A stretch of 64,000 nt of DNA, taken from NCBI GenBank assembly GCA_016937575.1, contig JAFHKN010000002.1:1860001-1924000 (forward strand). The letters run 5' to 3'. Every line of letters begins with the position of its first letter. Position 1 is the stretch's first letter. Below, one piece after another: positions 30,432 to 36,507 of the stretch. The notes under the pieces are model-generated. The model saw only the letters and a program-made list of their open reading frames with translations. It searched no databases and had not been told where the DNA came from. A program made the translations under genes and the position numbers. The DNA comes from Roseomonas aeriglobus (lineage in GTDB: Bacteria > Pseudomonadota > Alphaproteobacteria > Sphingomonadales > Sphingomonadaceae).

Positions 30432-30539
30432 AAAGCCCCTCCCCTTTAGGTGAGGGGTCGGGGCGGGGCCTGTCCGCGGGCGCCAGTCTCTGTGAGACGC
30501 CACCCCACCCCCAACCCCTCCCCTGACGGGGAGGGGCTT
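30432..30539. repeat. Long GC-rich inverted repeat before the YciB gene
   Basis: The outer arms are AAGCCCCTCCCC and its complement GGGGAGGGGCTT; each arm also contains its own small CCCCTCCCC-type hairpin. The centre is GTCTC-TGT-GAGAC (30486-30498). The same core and layout recur in a second element just after the gene at 31176-31292. Confidence 0.75.
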
Positions 30540-31175: not shown

Positions 31176-31292
31176 AAAGCCCTCTCCCCGCTCGGGGAGA
31201 GGGTTGGGAGAGGGGCAGTGCCGCTGGCTCAGGTCTCGGTGAGACCCCTTCCCCTCTCCCAAACCCTCTCCCCACATGGGGAGAGGACTTTT
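31176..31292. repeat. Long GC-rich inverted repeat after the YciB gene
   Basis: Outer arms are AAAGCCCTCTCCCC and, at the far end, a GGGGAGAGGACTTT near-complement. Inner arms carry GGGAGAGGGG and CCCCTCTCCC. The centre is GGTCTC-GGT-GAGACC (31232-31246). It lies between the convergent YciB-type gene and sodB and may act as a terminator for both. Confidence 0.75.
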
Positions 31293-31992: not shown

Positions 31993-33036
31993 TCAGCCCG
32001 CGCCGAGCAACCCGTGACGGCGCAGGGCGTGGCGCAATTGGTCGTAGCTGAGCCCCAGGGCAGCGGCGGCCTGACGCTGATTGTAGCGATGCTCGGCCAG
32101 GCATTTCGTGAGCAGCTCGCGCTCGAACCGGGCGACGCGCGCCTTGAAGTCGGACGGCCCTTCCTCGCAGGCGACGACCGGCTCGTCGGTCGGCACATTC
32201 GATCCCGGCTGTGGCGCTTCCACCGGCTTGGCGCGCGCGGCGCCGGGACGATGCGGCGAAGCGAAGGGGTCGATCTCGATCTCGTCGATGGGACCCGGCC
32301 GGTCCCAGCGATACACCGCCCGCTCCACGACGTTGCGCAATTCGCGGACGTTGCCTGGCCAGCGGTAATTGGTCAGCTGGTCCGTGGCATGCGCGCCGAA
32401 GCCGGGGAAGCGATCGCGCCCGATCTCGGACGCCATCCGCCGCCCGAAGAAATCGGCGAGCACCATGACGTCGCCCGATCGCGCCCGCAACGGCGGCAGG
32501 GTAATCACCTCGAAGCTCAACCGGTCGAGCAGGTCGGCGCGGAACGTCCCCTTCTCCACCCGGTCGGGCAGATGTTCGTTGGTCGCGGCCACGATGCGCA
32601 CGTCGACCCGCGTCGGCCGTGACGCGCCGATGCGGGTGATCTCGCCATATTCTACCGCGCGCAGCAGCCGGTCCTGCGCCGCCATGCTGAGTGTGCCGAG
32701 TTCGTCGAGGAACAACGTGCCCCCATCCGCCTCCTCAAACCGACCGGCGCGCGTCTTCGTCGCCCCCGTGAAGGCGCCCGCCTCATGCCCGAACAGCTCG
32801 GCCTCGATCAGCGTCTCCGGCAACGCTGCGCAATTCATCACGACCAGCGGCTGGTCCCAGCGCTGCGACAGGCGGTGGAGGCGCTCGGCGACGAGCTCCT
32901 TGCCCGTCCCCCGCTCCCCGATCACCAGCACCGGGCGATCGAGCGCGGCGGCGCGGCTGGCGCGCTCCAGCGAGTCGAGAAACGCACTCGATTGTCCGAC
33001 GACCTGGGTGTGCTGAATGGCCATGTGCCGAGGCAT
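31993..33036 (-). CDS. pspF: Sigma-54 activator PspF
   Basis: PspF activates the divergent psp operon with sigma-54 RNA polymerase. This 347-residue protein lacks a receiver domain, as PspF does. The AAA+ domain has the P-loop [14 protein letters not shown], the sigma-54-contacting GAFTGATKT and the Walker B-type GTLFLDELG. The C-terminal helix-turn-helix is [25 protein letters not shown] 33036 is preferred with GGTGGA upstream; ATG 33024 is a close alternative. Confidence 0.92.
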
Positions 33037-33123
33037 GGCGCATTCCACCAACTGTTAGCAACCCTGGAAATCACGCCTGCGCAACGATCGACGAAAAACG
33101 TCGAAAATCTCCCGTTTTTGGAT

Positions 33124-33140
33124 TTGGCACGCCCCCTGCA
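33124..33140 (+). promoter_or_regulatory. Sigma-54 promoter of the psp operon
   Basis: TTGGCACGCCCCCTGCA matches the -24/-12 consensus, with GG at 33126-33127 and GC at 33138-33139 separated by exactly ten bases. It lies about 105 bp before the pspA start and faces it, with pspF divergent on the other side. This is the classic psp layout. Confidence 0.88.
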
Positions 33141-33245
33141 ATGCTATGATCAACCGTCTGGCACAGGCCCCTGGGCCAGGCGAGCCGGGGTGGGATCCCT
33201 CGCCCCACCCCGGCAGATCATGCGAAGTGAGTGTAGGAGTTTTCG

Positions 33246-33911
33246 ATGGGTATCTTCTCCCGAACCCGCGACATCATTGCCGCCAATGTGACCGACCTGC
33301 TCGACCGTGCCGAAGATCCCGCGAAGATGGTCCGCATGATCATCTCGGAGATGGAGGACACGCTGGTCGAGGTCCGCGCATCGGCCGCCCGCACCATCGC
33401 CGACCAGAAGGAAATGCGCCGCCACGTCATCAAGCTGGAAGGGTTGCAGGCAAGCTGGACCGAAAAGGCCGAACTGGCGCTGTCGAAGGATCGCGAGGAT
33501 CTGGCCAAGGCTGCCCTGCTCGAACGCCAGAAGGCCGCCGACATGTGCGACCAGCTGACCGCCGAGATCACGGTTCTGGACGACGCGCTGCGTGCCTATG
33601 AGGTCGACATCGCCAAGCTGCAGAAGAAGCTGAGCGAAGCCCGCGCCCGTCAGAACTCGGTCGAGACGCGACTGGAAAGCGCGAACAACCGCTTCCGCCT
33701 GCGCGACATGTACGCCGGCCCCAAGACGACCGAGGCCTTCTCGCGCTTCGACGTGCTGGAACGCCGCGTGGACGAGGCAGAGGGGCGTGCCGATGCCGCC
33801 GGCCTGGGTGCGATCCGCACGCTGGAGGACGAATTCGCCGACCTGCGCTCCAGCGACAAGGTCGACGCCGAACTCGCCGCTTTGAAGGCACGCCTGAGCA
33901 AGGAGGGCTGA
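33246..33911 (+). CDS. pspA: Phage shock protein A
   Basis: PspA is a peripheral membrane protein that oligomerises on damaged inner membrane and inhibits PspF when stress is absent. The 221-residue protein is almost all helical coiled coil (MGIFSRTRDIIAANVTDLLD start; AEDPAKMVRMIISEME; RLESANNRFRLRDMYAG). TAGGAG precedes the start by six bases. It is followed at once by pspB. Confidence 0.96.
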   Translation: MGIFSRTRDIIAANVTDLLDRAEDPAKMVRMIISEMEDTLVEVRASAARTIADQKEMRRHVIKLEGLQASWTEKAELALSKDREDLAKAALLERQKAADMCDQLTAEITVLDDALRAYEVDIAKLQKKLSEARARQNSVETRLESANNRFRLRDMYAGPKTTEAFSRFDVLERRVDEAEGRADAAGLGAIRTLEDEFADLRSSDKVDAELAALKARLSKEG

Positions 33912-33912
33912 G

Positions 33913-34206
33913 ATGGGTGAGTTCGTAGTTGGCGCGATCGCGATCATCGCGATCTTCATCGGCCTGCCCTGGCTCGTCTTCCACTATGTCACCAAGTGGA
34001 AGCAGGCTCCGAAGATCACGGACGAAGACGAAAAGCTCCTCGATGAGCTCTATCACTTCGCCCGCCGTCTCGAAGACCGGGTGCAGACCGTCGAACGCAT
34101 CGTCGCCGCCGACAACCCCGATTTCCGCCAGCTCTCGGCCCCGACGCCCGATGCGTCGCCCAGCCTGAGCTCGACCCAAGACTATGACTTTTCGCGGAGG
34201 AACTGA
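33913..34206 (+). CDS. pspB: Phage shock protein B
   Basis: This 97-residue protein has one N-terminal membrane helix (about residues 4-26) and a coiled-coil cytoplasmic part (DEKLLDELYHFARRLEDRV, QTVERIVAADNPDFR) as in PspB, which relays envelope stress to PspA/PspF. It is one base downstream of pspA. The C-terminus is longer than in E. coli PspB (about 74 residues). Confidence 0.92.
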   Translation: MGEFVVGAIAIIAIFIGLPWLVFHYVTKWKQAPKITDEDEKLLDELYHFARRLEDRVQTVERIVAADNPDFRQLSAPTPDASPSLSSTQDYDFSRRN

Positions 34207-34209
34207 CCC

Positions 34210-34584
34210 ATGGCTGCCCGCACGAAATTCTATACCGACAAGCCCAACGGCAAGTGGATGGGCGTCTGCGCCGGAATTGCCGACTACACCGGGATCGACG
34301 TGACGCTGGTTCGGGTCGGCATGGTCCTGCTGACGGTCGTCAGCAACGGCATCGCGCTGATCGGTTATGTCGCCGCCGGCTGGCTCGCGCCGAAGAAGCC
34401 CTATGACCTCTACGAGACGCCGGACCAGGAGAAGTTCTGGCAGGGCGTCCGGTCGAACCCCAAACGCTCGACCGCGGAAGTCCGCAGCAAGTTCCGCGAG
34501 CTCGATCGGCGCCTGGCCGACATCGAGACCCACTATACCAGCCGCAATACGCGTCTGGCCGAAGAGATCGAGGCACTGCGCTAA
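34210..34584 (+). CDS. pspC: Phage shock protein C
   Basis: This 124-residue PspC-domain membrane protein has the signature KWMGVCAGIADYTGIDVTLV and then a membrane segment (about residues 38-60). The C-terminal tail (FRELDRRLADIETHYTS, then EEIEALR) carries the same LxxRxxxIE pattern that recurs in the five following small proteins. It lies three bases after pspB. Confidence 0.92.
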   Translation: MAARTKFYTDKPNGKWMGVCAGIADYTGIDVTLVRVGMVLLTVVSNGIALIGYVAAGWLAPKKPYDLYETPDQEKFWQGVRSNPKRSTAEVRSKFRELDRRLADIETHYTSRNTRLAEEIEALR

Positions 34585-34612
34585 GCGCAGGCCTCAAACG
34601 GGGAGACGGACG

Positions 34613-34906
34613 ATGGAATGGGGTGGCCCGACATTCGTCATCATGATCGTGGCGATCTGCACTGGCAGCTGGCTGATCAACAACTGGATCCGCGCCAAGC
34701 ACGGCTATGAGCCGACCGACGAATGGGGCGGCACCGGCGAGAGCAAGACGGCGATCGCCGACAAGCGGAAGATCGAGCTGTTGAGCACCGAGAACGCGTC
34801 GTTGCAGGGCAAGGTCAGCCGGCTGGAAGAGCGGACCGCGGTGCTTGAGCGCATCGCCACCGACCCTGCCGAGCGGACCGCCCGCGAAATCGACGCCCTG
34901 CGCTGA
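34613..34906 (+). CDS. PspB-like small membrane coiled-coil protein 1
   Basis: This 97-residue protein has an N-terminal membrane helix (about residues 5-25) and a coiled coil containing SRLEERTAVLERIATDPAER, ending EIDALR. This matches the PspB motif RRLEDRVQTVERI and the ending of pspC. ATG 34613 has GGGAGACGGACG upstream, and the gene is 28 bp after pspC. It is likely part of the psp transcript. It is a PspB paralogue by pattern; its function is not known. Confidence 0.85.
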   Translation: MEWGGPTFVIMIVAICTGSWLINNWIRAKHGYEPTDEWGGTGESKTAIADKRKIELLSTENASLQGKVSRLEERTAVLERIATDPAERTAREIDALR

Positions 34907-34917
34907 AGGACTGACCG

Positions 34918-35202
34918 ATGAACGGCTTTTCGATTTTCATGATCGTCTTCGTGGTCGTCGGCCTGCCGGTGATCCTCGGCATCGGCAGCGAGATGTTCAG
35001 GCGCTGGCTGAAGCACAAGGAAGTGATGGCCGAGGCGCTGAACGCCCAAACCGCTGAAAAGGCGGCGCAATATGCCGCTCACACCGAACGGCTGGAGCAG
35101 CGGGTGCGCGTGCTGGAGCGGATCGCGACCGACCGCGGCGTGGCGGTCGCGGACGAGATCGAGCGGCTGCGCGACGACCGGACGGTCCCGCCGCTCAACT
35201 GA
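34918..35202 (+). CDS. PspB-like small membrane coiled-coil protein 2
   Basis: This 94-residue protein has a membrane helix (about residues 5-27), a coiled coil (KHKEVMAEALNAQTAEKAAQ) and the shared motif ERLEQRVRVLERIATDRG, followed by EIERLRDD. It lies 11 bp after the preceding gene with GAAGGA before the start. Same layout as PspB; function unknown. Confidence 0.85.
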   Translation: MNGFSIFMIVFVVVGLPVILGIGSEMFRRWLKHKEVMAEALNAQTAEKAAQYAAHTERLEQRVRVLERIATDRGVAVADEIERLRDDRTVPPLN

Positions 35203-35261
35203 GACGACGAGGGGTGTGGGCGGCACTTTCCGCCCAACCAAATTCTCAAGGACACAAAACA

Positions 35262-35381
35262 ATGTTGGTATTTTGCATCGTCATGGCGGCGGTGGCCGGA
35301 GTCGGCTGCTTTCTGACCGAGCGCGTCGATCGCCCCCGCCGCCGCGCCGCCCGTGAAGCGGCACTCCACCCGGCCGAATAG
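35262..35381 (+). CDS. Very small membrane protein in the psp cluster
   Basis: This 39-residue frame has one short hydrophobic helix (MLVFCIVMAAVAGVGCFL) and a basic Arg-rich tail. It sits between PspB-like proteins 2 and 3 and in the same direction, with AAGGAC nine bases upstream. It lacks the coiled-coil motif. The case rests on its layout and position. Confidence 0.55.
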   Translation: MLVFCIVMAAVAGVGCFLTERVDRPRRRAAREAALHPAE

Positions 35382-35423
35382 GCCAGCTATACAAAAACAA
35401 AATCATCAGAGGGAGTTACGACT

Positions 35424-35693
35424 ATGTCCGGTGGCCAATTCATGGTGGTGATGATCGTCGCGATCGTGATGTTCAGCAGCATCATCAAGGCGAAGATGGG
35501 CATCCGACGCGACCGTCACGGCGACTACAGCATCCGCGACGATGCCGCCGTCAGCGCCGAGAACCATCGCCTGAAGGGTGAGATCGCCGACCTGCGCGAG
35601 CGCATCCAGGTTCTGGAACGCGTCGTGACCGACAATGAAGGTAGCCTGCGCCTCGATCGCGAGATCGAGAAGCTGCGCGGCCCCCGCGACTGA
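35424..35693 (+). CDS. PspB-like small membrane coiled-coil protein 3
   Basis: This 89-residue protein has a membrane helix (about residues 6-24), a basic patch and a coiled coil with ADLRERIQVLERVVTDNEGS, ending EIEKLRGPRD. GAGGGAG lies upstream of ATG 35424. It follows the same plan as the two preceding PspB-like proteins. Confidence 0.85.
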   Translation: MSGGQFMVVMIVAIVMFSSIIKAKMGIRRDRHGDYSIRDDAAVSAENHRLKGEIADLRERIQVLERVVTDNEGSLRLDREIEKLRGPRD

Positions 35694-35722
35694 CATTCGA
35701 TACGTAAAGGGAGTATGGAGCG

Positions 35723-35965
35723 ATGACCGATCCGAACTACTACCTGACCCTCGCCTCCGCCGGCCTCGTCGGCCTTGGCATGGTGACGATGGCGGCACTG
35801 AACGGCTGGCGCGGATGGCTGGCGCTGAAGGCGCAGGAAATGTCCGCACGCCGCGAAATGGACGACGCCCCCAGCGTGCCCAGCGCCGGCGCCCGCATCG
35901 AGATCGCGGACCTCAAGGAACGCATCCGCAAGCTGGAAGCGATTGCCGCCGGGGTGGACCTCTGA
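35723..35965 (+). CDS. PspB-like small membrane protein 4
   Basis: This 80-residue protein has an N-terminal membrane helix (about residues 9-27, ASAGLVGLGMVTMAALNGW), then a charged part ending in ADLKERIRKLEAIAAGVDL, a weaker copy of the cluster motif. GGGAG lies upstream. It ends 25 bp before sufE, so all of 33246-36395 may be one transcript. Confidence 0.8.
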   Translation: MTDPNYYLTLASAGLVGLGMVTMAALNGWRGWLALKAQEMSARREMDDAPSVPSAGARIEIADLKERIRKLEAIAAGVDL

Positions 35966-35990
35966 GCCACCCCCGGCGTAGGGGCGAGGG

Positions 35991-36395
35991 ATGACGACCC
36001 TCGCCGACCTGACCGACGAATATGGCTTCCTCGACGCCGACGATCGCTACCGCCTGCTGATCGACCTGGGCCGCGACCTGGAGCCGATGCCCGAAGCGCT
36101 CAAGACCGATGCGACCTTGGTGCGCGGATGTTCGGCCTCGGTCTGGGTCTATCCGACCGTCCACGACGACGGCACGCTGCATTTCCTGGCCGACAGCAAT
36201 GCCGCGATCACCAAGGGGATCATCGCGCTCGTTCTGTTGAGCGTGCAGGACCGGACGCCCGCGGACATATTGGCGACCGACATCGAAAGCGCGCTGGCGC
36301 CGTTCGACCTGAAAAACCAGCTGAGTTCGAACCGGACCCAAGGGATCCCGAACATGATCGCCCTGATCCGCAAGACGGCTGAGCGGTACGCATAG
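35991..36395 (+). CDS. sufE: SufE-family sulfur-transfer protein
   Basis: SufE accepts persulfide sulfur from a SufS-type cysteine desulfurase for Fe-S cluster assembly. The 134-residue protein has the acceptor Cys47 in VRGCSASVWVYP and the family ending SSNRTQGIPNMIALIRKTA. It sits right after the psp cluster. Which desulfurase it serves is not shown; two cysteine desulfurases are at 54-56 kb. Confidence 0.92.
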   Translation: MTTLADLTDEYGFLDADDRYRLLIDLGRDLEPMPEALKTDATLVRGCSASVWVYPTVHDDGTLHFLADSNAAITKGIIALVLLSVQDRTPADILATDIESALAPFDLKNQLSSNRTQGIPNMIALIRKTAERYA

Positions 36396-36507
36396 ACTTC
36401 GTTAGGCTCTCGCGTAGCGGAGGCTCAAGGCGGCGAGCCATAGCGCTTGTGACTTCAGGCTCCCGTCCTTGCGGGACCACAGCATGATGCTTCTACACCG
36501 AGCGGTT

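Follow-up and report, generated by a model that had tools for sequence, protein, structure and literature searches.

The window, by which we mean the whole stretch of 64,000 nucleotides that was analysed, lies in a genome of 4.28 Mb and contains a psp locus with the gene order pspF (on the minus strand), pspA, pspB, pspC, S1, S2, a gene for a 39-amino-acid peptide (M39), S3, S4, and sufE (Table 1). PspA, PspB, PspC, and PspF each score above an NCBIfam cut-off. The first-pass annotation had described four PspB-like small membrane proteins (here S1–S4) after pspC, and the positions that it gave for pspC, S1, S2, the 39-amino-acid peptide, S3, and S4 are confirmed. Because their dN/dS values against three relatives are 0.04–0.44, the open frames of S1–S4 look like real genes. 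Relatives of the locus were taken as the 80 loci that best match PspA among 548 loci encoding a relative; within this sample the nearest psp loci are those of Sphingomonas. Two sampled records, L020 and L038, bear the titles Arthrobacter sp. TPD3018 and Bacillus sp. 2B10; their psp loci are of the Sphingomonas type, and the names are probably wrong. Elsewhere in the window, at 30433–30539 and 31176–31291, there are pairs of GC-rich inverted repeats of the CCCTCTCCCC...GGGGAGAGG type, 35 and 50 bases apart.

Table 1. Features of the psp locus, with positions counted from the first nucleotide of the window.
Feature	Position	Strand	Basis or remark
pspF, sigma-54 activator, divergent	31993..33051	-	TIGR02974 480.4 bits (cut-off 443.55)
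Sigma-54-like promoter box TTGGCACGCCCCCTGCAA	33124..33141	+	About 121 bp before pspA; score 11 of 12
pspA	33246..33911	+	TIGR02977 276.4 bits (cut-off 242.95)
pspB, true PspB; first half of the module (RRLEDRVQTVERI)	33913..34206	+	TIGR02976 88.8 bits (cut-off 51.7); PF06667 86.2 (cut-off 25.6)
pspC; tail helix at residues about 84–123 aligns with the module	34210..34584	+	TIGR02978 116.7 bits (cut-off 104)
S1, 97 aa; TM helix and full module	34613..34906	+	Profile search, tail alignment; predicted helices 6–30 and 43–96
S2, 94 aa; TM helix and full module	34918..35202	+	Profile search, tail alignment; weak PspB/PspC matches
M39, 39-aa single-TM peptide without the module	35262..35381	+	Homologs in 18 of 80 loci
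S3, 89 aa; TM helix and full module	35424..35693	+	With S2, top profile match to stand-alone proteins of other genomes
S4, 80 aa; TM helix and near-invariant tail; remote relative	35723..35965	+	Tail alignment; company of pspA
sufE-like gene, end of the row	35991..36395	+	25 bp past S4; named from reading the sequence; match in 73 of 80 loci

S1, S2, and S3 have the same layout: one N-terminal membrane helix, predicted to be N-out/C-in, a variable linker, and a common C-terminal helix (the module) with the pattern R..VLERI.TD....L..EI..L. In an alignment of 26 tails, R24, E29, R30, T33, D34, I43, L46, and R47 are invariant, and 25 tails that include those of other families retain R, E, T-D, E-I, and L. 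Hydropathy places one membrane helix near the N-terminus of S1–S4 and of M39, and within the flanks counted K and R occur solely beyond it. In S1–S4 the helix lies at about residues 3–22 (8–26 in S4), is preceded by no K or R, and is followed by 2–5 of them within 15 residues (in S1 the net charge is -1). On hydropathy and the structure model of S1, the PspB-type build (N-terminal membrane helix, N-out/C-in, and cytoplasmic helix) is predicted for all four proteins. The S1 model consists of two helices (modest confidence; pLDDT 79, pTM 0.38), and the model of the window PspC ends in one long helix (low confidence; pLDDT 67.5, pTM 0.33). When the module is aligned with PspC and PspB of Escherichia coli and of the window, the shared spacing is R....E...T(S/D)....L...L. 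The motif had been attributed to PspB itself and to the PspC tail: PspB proves to carry its first half only, and the PspC tail appears related for some classes, S1a and S1b. Similarly, the single plan ascribed to all four small proteins holds in full for S1–S3, and S4 has the coiled-coil half only, without the EIxxLR ending.

Proteins of different classes in one locus are 45 per cent identical over the module and 23 per cent over the N-terminal part (298 pairs), and the shuffled between-class values are 20 per cent for the module and 6 per cent for the remainder (153 pairs). Within a class, tails from different loci are 69–79 per cent identical and the remainder 37–59 per cent. One gene of the relatives (L020, 7671–7991) joins an S1b front half to an S1a tail and resembles a recombination product of adjacent paralogs.

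The relationship among the row proteins was examined with a profile based solely on the tails of S3 (62 sequences, 50 unique), for which S1 and S2 are a held-out test, and which was searched against 16,621 six-frame open reading frames of the 80 relatives and the window. At E < 1e-3, this profile recovers 35 of 35 S1b, 95 of 96 S1a, and 69 of 71 S2 proteins; two further matches below 1e-3 are row members outside the class assignments, and the top match elsewhere has E = 1.5. With the same profile, E < 1 is reached by S4 in 78 of 80 cases, by PspB in 28 of 81, and by PspC in none of 81. Class-to-class searches in the 80 loci also connect S1, S2, and S3, and profile comparison among S1a, S1b, S2, and S3 gives probabilities of 97–99.9 per cent. 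In a tree of 110 rows and 103 columns (200 bootstrap trees, with bootstrap values that had not settled and an arbitrary root), S2 and S3 form groups with support of 98 and 95 per cent, respectively, and S1a is not supported as one group. Judged by these sequence comparisons, S1–S3 are true paralogs, and the family link is solid.

Links from the row to PspB and PspC are more distant. Profile comparison with PspB gives 89.5 per cent for S1a, 87.4 per cent for S3, 61 per cent for S2, 29 per cent for S1b, and 0.5 per cent for S4. With the PspC tail, the values are 93 per cent for S1b and 86 per cent for S1a (over 36 and 33 profile columns, respectively), 58 per cent for S2, 17.6 per cent for S3, and 0.1 per cent for S4. 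As a control we used DivIC, a family of the same build represented by nine sequences (from 9 of 30 loci, collected by motif) against 16–84 sequences in the families compared; it reaches 36 per cent with S1a (range 0.3–36 per cent over S1a, S1b, S2, S3, and S4) and 43 per cent with the stand-alone kin described below, and values under about 50 per cent are therefore at control level. Since S2 reaches 58 per cent, S3 17.6 per cent, and the stand-alone kin 69 per cent, the PspC-tail link stands on S1a and S1b. A direct profile comparison of PspB with the PspC tail is null (0.6 per cent), and the PspA coiled coil and M39 give at most 1.7 per cent with S1a, S1b, S2, and S3. A module profile searched against the whole genome of the window ranks S1, S2, and S3 first (by construction, as it was trained on them among others), followed by PspB (E = 0.019), an unrelated protein (0.24), and the PspC tail (0.29). 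Against the module profile, E. coli PspB has E = 8e-4, and E. coli PspC gives no score (E = 22).

None of S1–S4 exceeds a Pfam or NCBIfam cut-off, those of the PspC models included, and none matches the PspC domain (PF04024). Against the PspB models, S1 and S4 have no match, S2 scores 11.6 bits (Pfam) and 15.2 bits (TIGR02976), and S3 scores 16.3 bits (TIGR02976), the cut-offs being 25.6 and 51.7 bits. The closest NCBIfam names for S2 and S3 are PspB and PspC (E = 0.002–0.02). Among the 120 S3 relatives listed of 284 in UniRef, one is named "Phage shock protein B" and one has a name starting with "Phage shock protein"; the remainder are mostly hypothetical proteins, with some YlxW, FtsB, and SlyB. 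The PDB gave weak sequence matches (best E = 0.005); the top two cover only the coiled-coil half, and several others are named coiled coils. By profile evidence, S1–S3 show distant kinship to PspB and, more unevenly, to the PspC tail, with scores under the curated cut-offs. The earlier label "PspB-like" is thus apt and "PspB" itself is not, because S1–S4 fall under both PspB cut-offs. The proposed expansion inside the psp operon is supported: the proteins form one family, with kinship to PspB and, in some classes, to the PspC tail.

Other assignments were also considered. The condition named at the outset as refuting the family, that the motif is a generic coiled coil without homology between the proteins, fails for S1–S3 on the specificity of the S3 profile, the profile comparison, and the DivIC control; it is partly possible for S4. 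Assignment of S1–S4 to the DivIC/FtsL type fails on PF04977 scores of at most 14.3 bits against a cut-off of 28.9 bits and on profile comparison of at most 36 per cent (43 per cent for the stand-alone kin). M39, the 39-amino-acid membrane peptide correctly noted among the small genes, carries TERVDRPRRR after its helix, is patchily distributed (Table 1), and has dN/dS of 0–0.30 against three relatives. As a member of the module family it is rejected: besides lacking the module, it has a profile probability below 2 per cent against S1a, S1b, S2, S3, S4, and PspB, and of 6.9 per cent against the stand-alone kin.

The row is a lineage-wide feature. All 136 sampled genomes of the family Sphingomonadaceae have modules, with a median of four and a range of one to seven. 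Across the order, PspA is present in 192 of 197 genomes and the module, at E <= 0.01, in 182 of 197, where a few of the module counts may be inflated by PspB or PspC; among the remaining families of the order, 46 of 61 genomes have it, 35 in one copy and 11 in two (range 0–2). Class-wide, the module was found in 19 of 387 genomes, 13 of them outside the family, mostly as weak matches, one of which (L152) is a PspC tail. In the phylum, a broader profile detected it in 53 of 397 genomes, 24 of them outside the class. The synteny comparison showed that the row is kept beside pspA: 79 of the 80 loci have two to five modules, with no match outside the row at E < 1e-3 in any of these 79, and the best listed module lies within 5 kb of pspA in all 77 genomes for which both places are listed. 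The composition of the row varies. At least 35 loci have, by motif, S1b, a class absent from the window, and some have a further type, S1c; one locus (L073) has pspABC and S4 without S1–S3. S4 was seen in 79 of 80 loci, the exception (L063) being on a contig that ends shortly past the first modules.

S4 stands apart within the row. Its 24-residue tail, RIEIADLKERI[RK]KLEAIAAGV[DE]L, is 96 per cent identical between loci and the remainder 54 per cent (39 pairs). Profile comparison of S4 gives 95 per cent with the stand-alone kin, 88 per cent with S3, 47 per cent with S1a, 45 per cent with S2, and 2 per cent with S1b; as profiles go, the similarity of S1a and S2 to S4 is at control level. S4 is present in 131 of 136 genomes of the family and, weakly, in 1 of 61 genomes of the order's other families. 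In 113 of 115 compared genomes it adjoins a pspA, which in 17 of these is a second pspA. Outside two genera, S4 lies less than 6 kb from the listed pspA in all 96 genomes with both places listed (16 more were left out). In the 19 genomes of the two genera, S4 is never near the main pspA and is at most 1.5 kb from the second pspA in 17 (exceptions, G196 and G214). Two such second operons (L267, 4242–5655; L268, 4213–5728) have the order pspA'-pspC'-S4, with a PspC domain over the cut-off and with no pspB or S1–S3 match seen; the genus also retains the main psp row. This constant company with pspA, main or second, makes the strongest case for S4 working together with PspA and PspC, and through it the partner half of the earlier suggestion of several sensors or partners for PspA gains support. 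A 78-amino-acid TM-like protein ending in the S4 tail was also seen outside the psp row (L262, 1953–2189; G008).

Relatives of the module also occur by themselves. Outside the order, 18 regions of 12 kb surrounding module genes (from 13 genomes) contain no PspA, PspC, or PspF, and their sole PspB match is the module protein itself (19 bits). These stand-alone kin (n = 23) give 98–99.6 per cent in profile comparison with S1a, S1b, S2, and S3, 94.3 per cent with PspB, and 69 per cent with the PspC tail; under the cut-offs, they match the NCBI PspB model (best E = 2e-10, L256) and, over the tail, the NCBI PspC model (E = 3e-6 for L256 and 1e-5 for L241). In view of these kin, the psp row looks like the local multiplication of an older small protein, and their place away from psp genes in other Proteobacteria means that the module is also employed outside this operon. 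Another family of the order has one module copy after pspABC (L194–L197) and another after apparent dnaG and rpoD, genes named by eye (L199, L200, L201, and L207). The former loci have an extra protein of 75–84 amino acids that matches PspC between pspC and the module gene (L194, 1062–1301; also L195, L196, and L197), confirmed in L194 as a PspC-domain protein. In two genomes, an S1-type module away from the psp row forms the end of a protein whose N-terminal domain is zinc-ribbon-like (CxxC) and which, by eye, has no membrane helix (L212, 7728–8117, G056; L213, 7813–8205, G136); their DUF6487 scores of 22.5 and 23.6 bits are just below the 24-bit cut-off.

A single transcript from the sigma-54 promoter, as suggested in the first-pass annotation, is supported as probable. 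The intergenic gaps in the window from pspA to S4 are 1, 3, 28, 11, 59, 42, and 29 bp, and across loci, with gene starts picked by a simple rule, 440 row gaps have a median of 16 bp and exceed 100 bp in four cases. Scored against the sigma-54 consensus, a box reaching 10–11 of 12 precedes pspA in 67 of 79 loci, in contrast to 4 of 395 mononucleotide shuffles scoring at least 10; the scan covered 300 bases upstream, and the 12 low scorers may carry the box farther out. Within the row, a score of 10 is found in 4 of 79 loci and a score of 11 in none. No sigma-70-type promoter was found at 33000–36500 of the window; two terminator-like sites, which are on the minus strand, do not exceed chance expectation. 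Taken together, the row is probably one transcript with pspABC, and its conserved place and one promoter put it in the psp operon.

Our preferred reading, to which we give an even chance, is that a membrane adaptor resembling PspB and the PspC tail has undergone a lineage-wide tandem expansion in the psp operon, with S1–S4 as docking helices for PspA. In E. coli, overexpressed PspC40-119 (membrane helix and tail) contacts PspA and can induce psp in the absence of PspB, with a requirement for the tail zipper (PMC3068692). S1–S3 share the build of this fragment, from which we infer that they may be extra docking helices for PspA (or for PspB/PspC) made with the operon; by this analogy, the small proteins would probably serve as additional docking sites for PspA, the protein that guards the membrane. 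PspF would fire the sigma-54 promoter, and S1–S4, produced along with PspABC, would show several copies of the helix at the inner face of the membrane, where these may bind PspA or form heteropairs with PspB and PspC. The differing N-terminal halves could each position or gate this common docking helix in a different way, which would give more PspA anchoring sites and possibly more input signals drawing PspA off PspF. S4, whose tail is its own, would partner PspA and PspC in a more specialised way.

Several observations count against this docking reading: the scores under the PspB and PspC cut-offs, the null comparison of PspB with the PspC tail, the lower profile values of S2 with both, of S1b with PspB, and of S3 and the stand-alone kin with the PspC tail, the control-level similarity of S4 to S1a and S2, the E value of 22 for E. 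coli PspC, the lone kin away from psp genes, and the locus without S1–S3. So does the E. coli protein: the study cited above places its tail putatively in the periplasm and allows for a second topology, and the tail by itself (PspC69-119) depended on PspB (PMC3068692).

Somewhat unlikely, in our estimate, is that the row forms an effector platform, that is, anchors that keep PspA oligomers on the membrane after induction and play no part in freeing PspF. All its genes lie downstream of the promoter that they would control and so should accumulate after induction, and copy number varies, down to a locus that has only S4 beside pspABC. Gene order, however, does not discriminate, because PspB and PspC are encoded likewise and yet are sensors in E. 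coli, and the stronger divergence of the N-terminal parts than of the module fits distinct inputs equally well. More doubtful still is a broader proposition, namely that the PspC-tail/PspB helix is a free-standing PspA-docking module reused by Proteobacteria in lone proteins, in arrays of up to seven in Sphingomonadaceae, and in the zinc-ribbon-like fusion without a membrane helix in two genomes; the array would then be a multi-input Psp switch, each membrane half reading another condition and all converging on PspA. We think it improbable that the modules act as modulators of PspB and PspC, forming heteropairs with PspB or the PspC tail to keep PspBC off (or on) and making no contact with PspA: the module does resemble both the PspB helix and the PspC tail, but S4 accompanies pspA' and pspC' in two second operons that have no pspB or S1–S3 match, and module proteins occur away from psp genes. 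That the row consists of unrelated small coiled-coil membrane proteins alike by composition, for which the weak PDB matches and the sub-threshold Pfam matches could be cited, is barely credible given the profile specificity among 16,621 open reading frames, the DivIC control, and the conserved T-D and E-I..L positions past the coiled-coil half, and is already contradicted for S1–S3, being possible for S4 alone.

If a whole family maintains between one and seven additional tail helices in the operon, then either PspA needs many anchors or the switch has many inputs, and both bear on what PspBC sense. The natural copies, classes, and hybrids, together with S4 moving with a second pspA–pspC pair, are ready variants for mapping the PspA-binding surface.

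In the usual picture of the Psp response, one PspB and one PspC feed PspA. The row proteins resemble PspD and PspG of E. coli as further small psp proteins, and PspD differs in having no module match (-1.8 bits). "PspB duplicates" in psp operons and "PspC fused to a divergent C-terminal PspB" have been reported, with AOL22920.1 and ANW39986.1 as examples (PMC11237479). These are probably the same phenomenon as the S row; the text available from that paper gives each one line, without classes, copy numbers, S4, stand-alone kin, or lineage range. We found no account of the class structure, the copy numbers, S4 with a second pair, or the stand-alone and fused kin in the open-licence literature. 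With PspB (PF06667, TIGR02976), the row proteins share size, the N-terminal membrane helix, the helix R.E.R...(V/L)ERI, and a place in the psp operon, but S1–S3 have the added T-D and L..EI..LR half, fall under both cut-offs, and are present in several copies next to a genuine PspB. With the PspC tail (TIGR02978 at about 80–121; E. coli PspC69-119), S1a and S1b align in profile comparison, and the R..E..(T)(S/D)....L...L spacing and the predicted helix are alike; unlike PspC, the S proteins lack PF04024 and have one membrane helix, a build that resembles the E. coli fragment PspC40-119.
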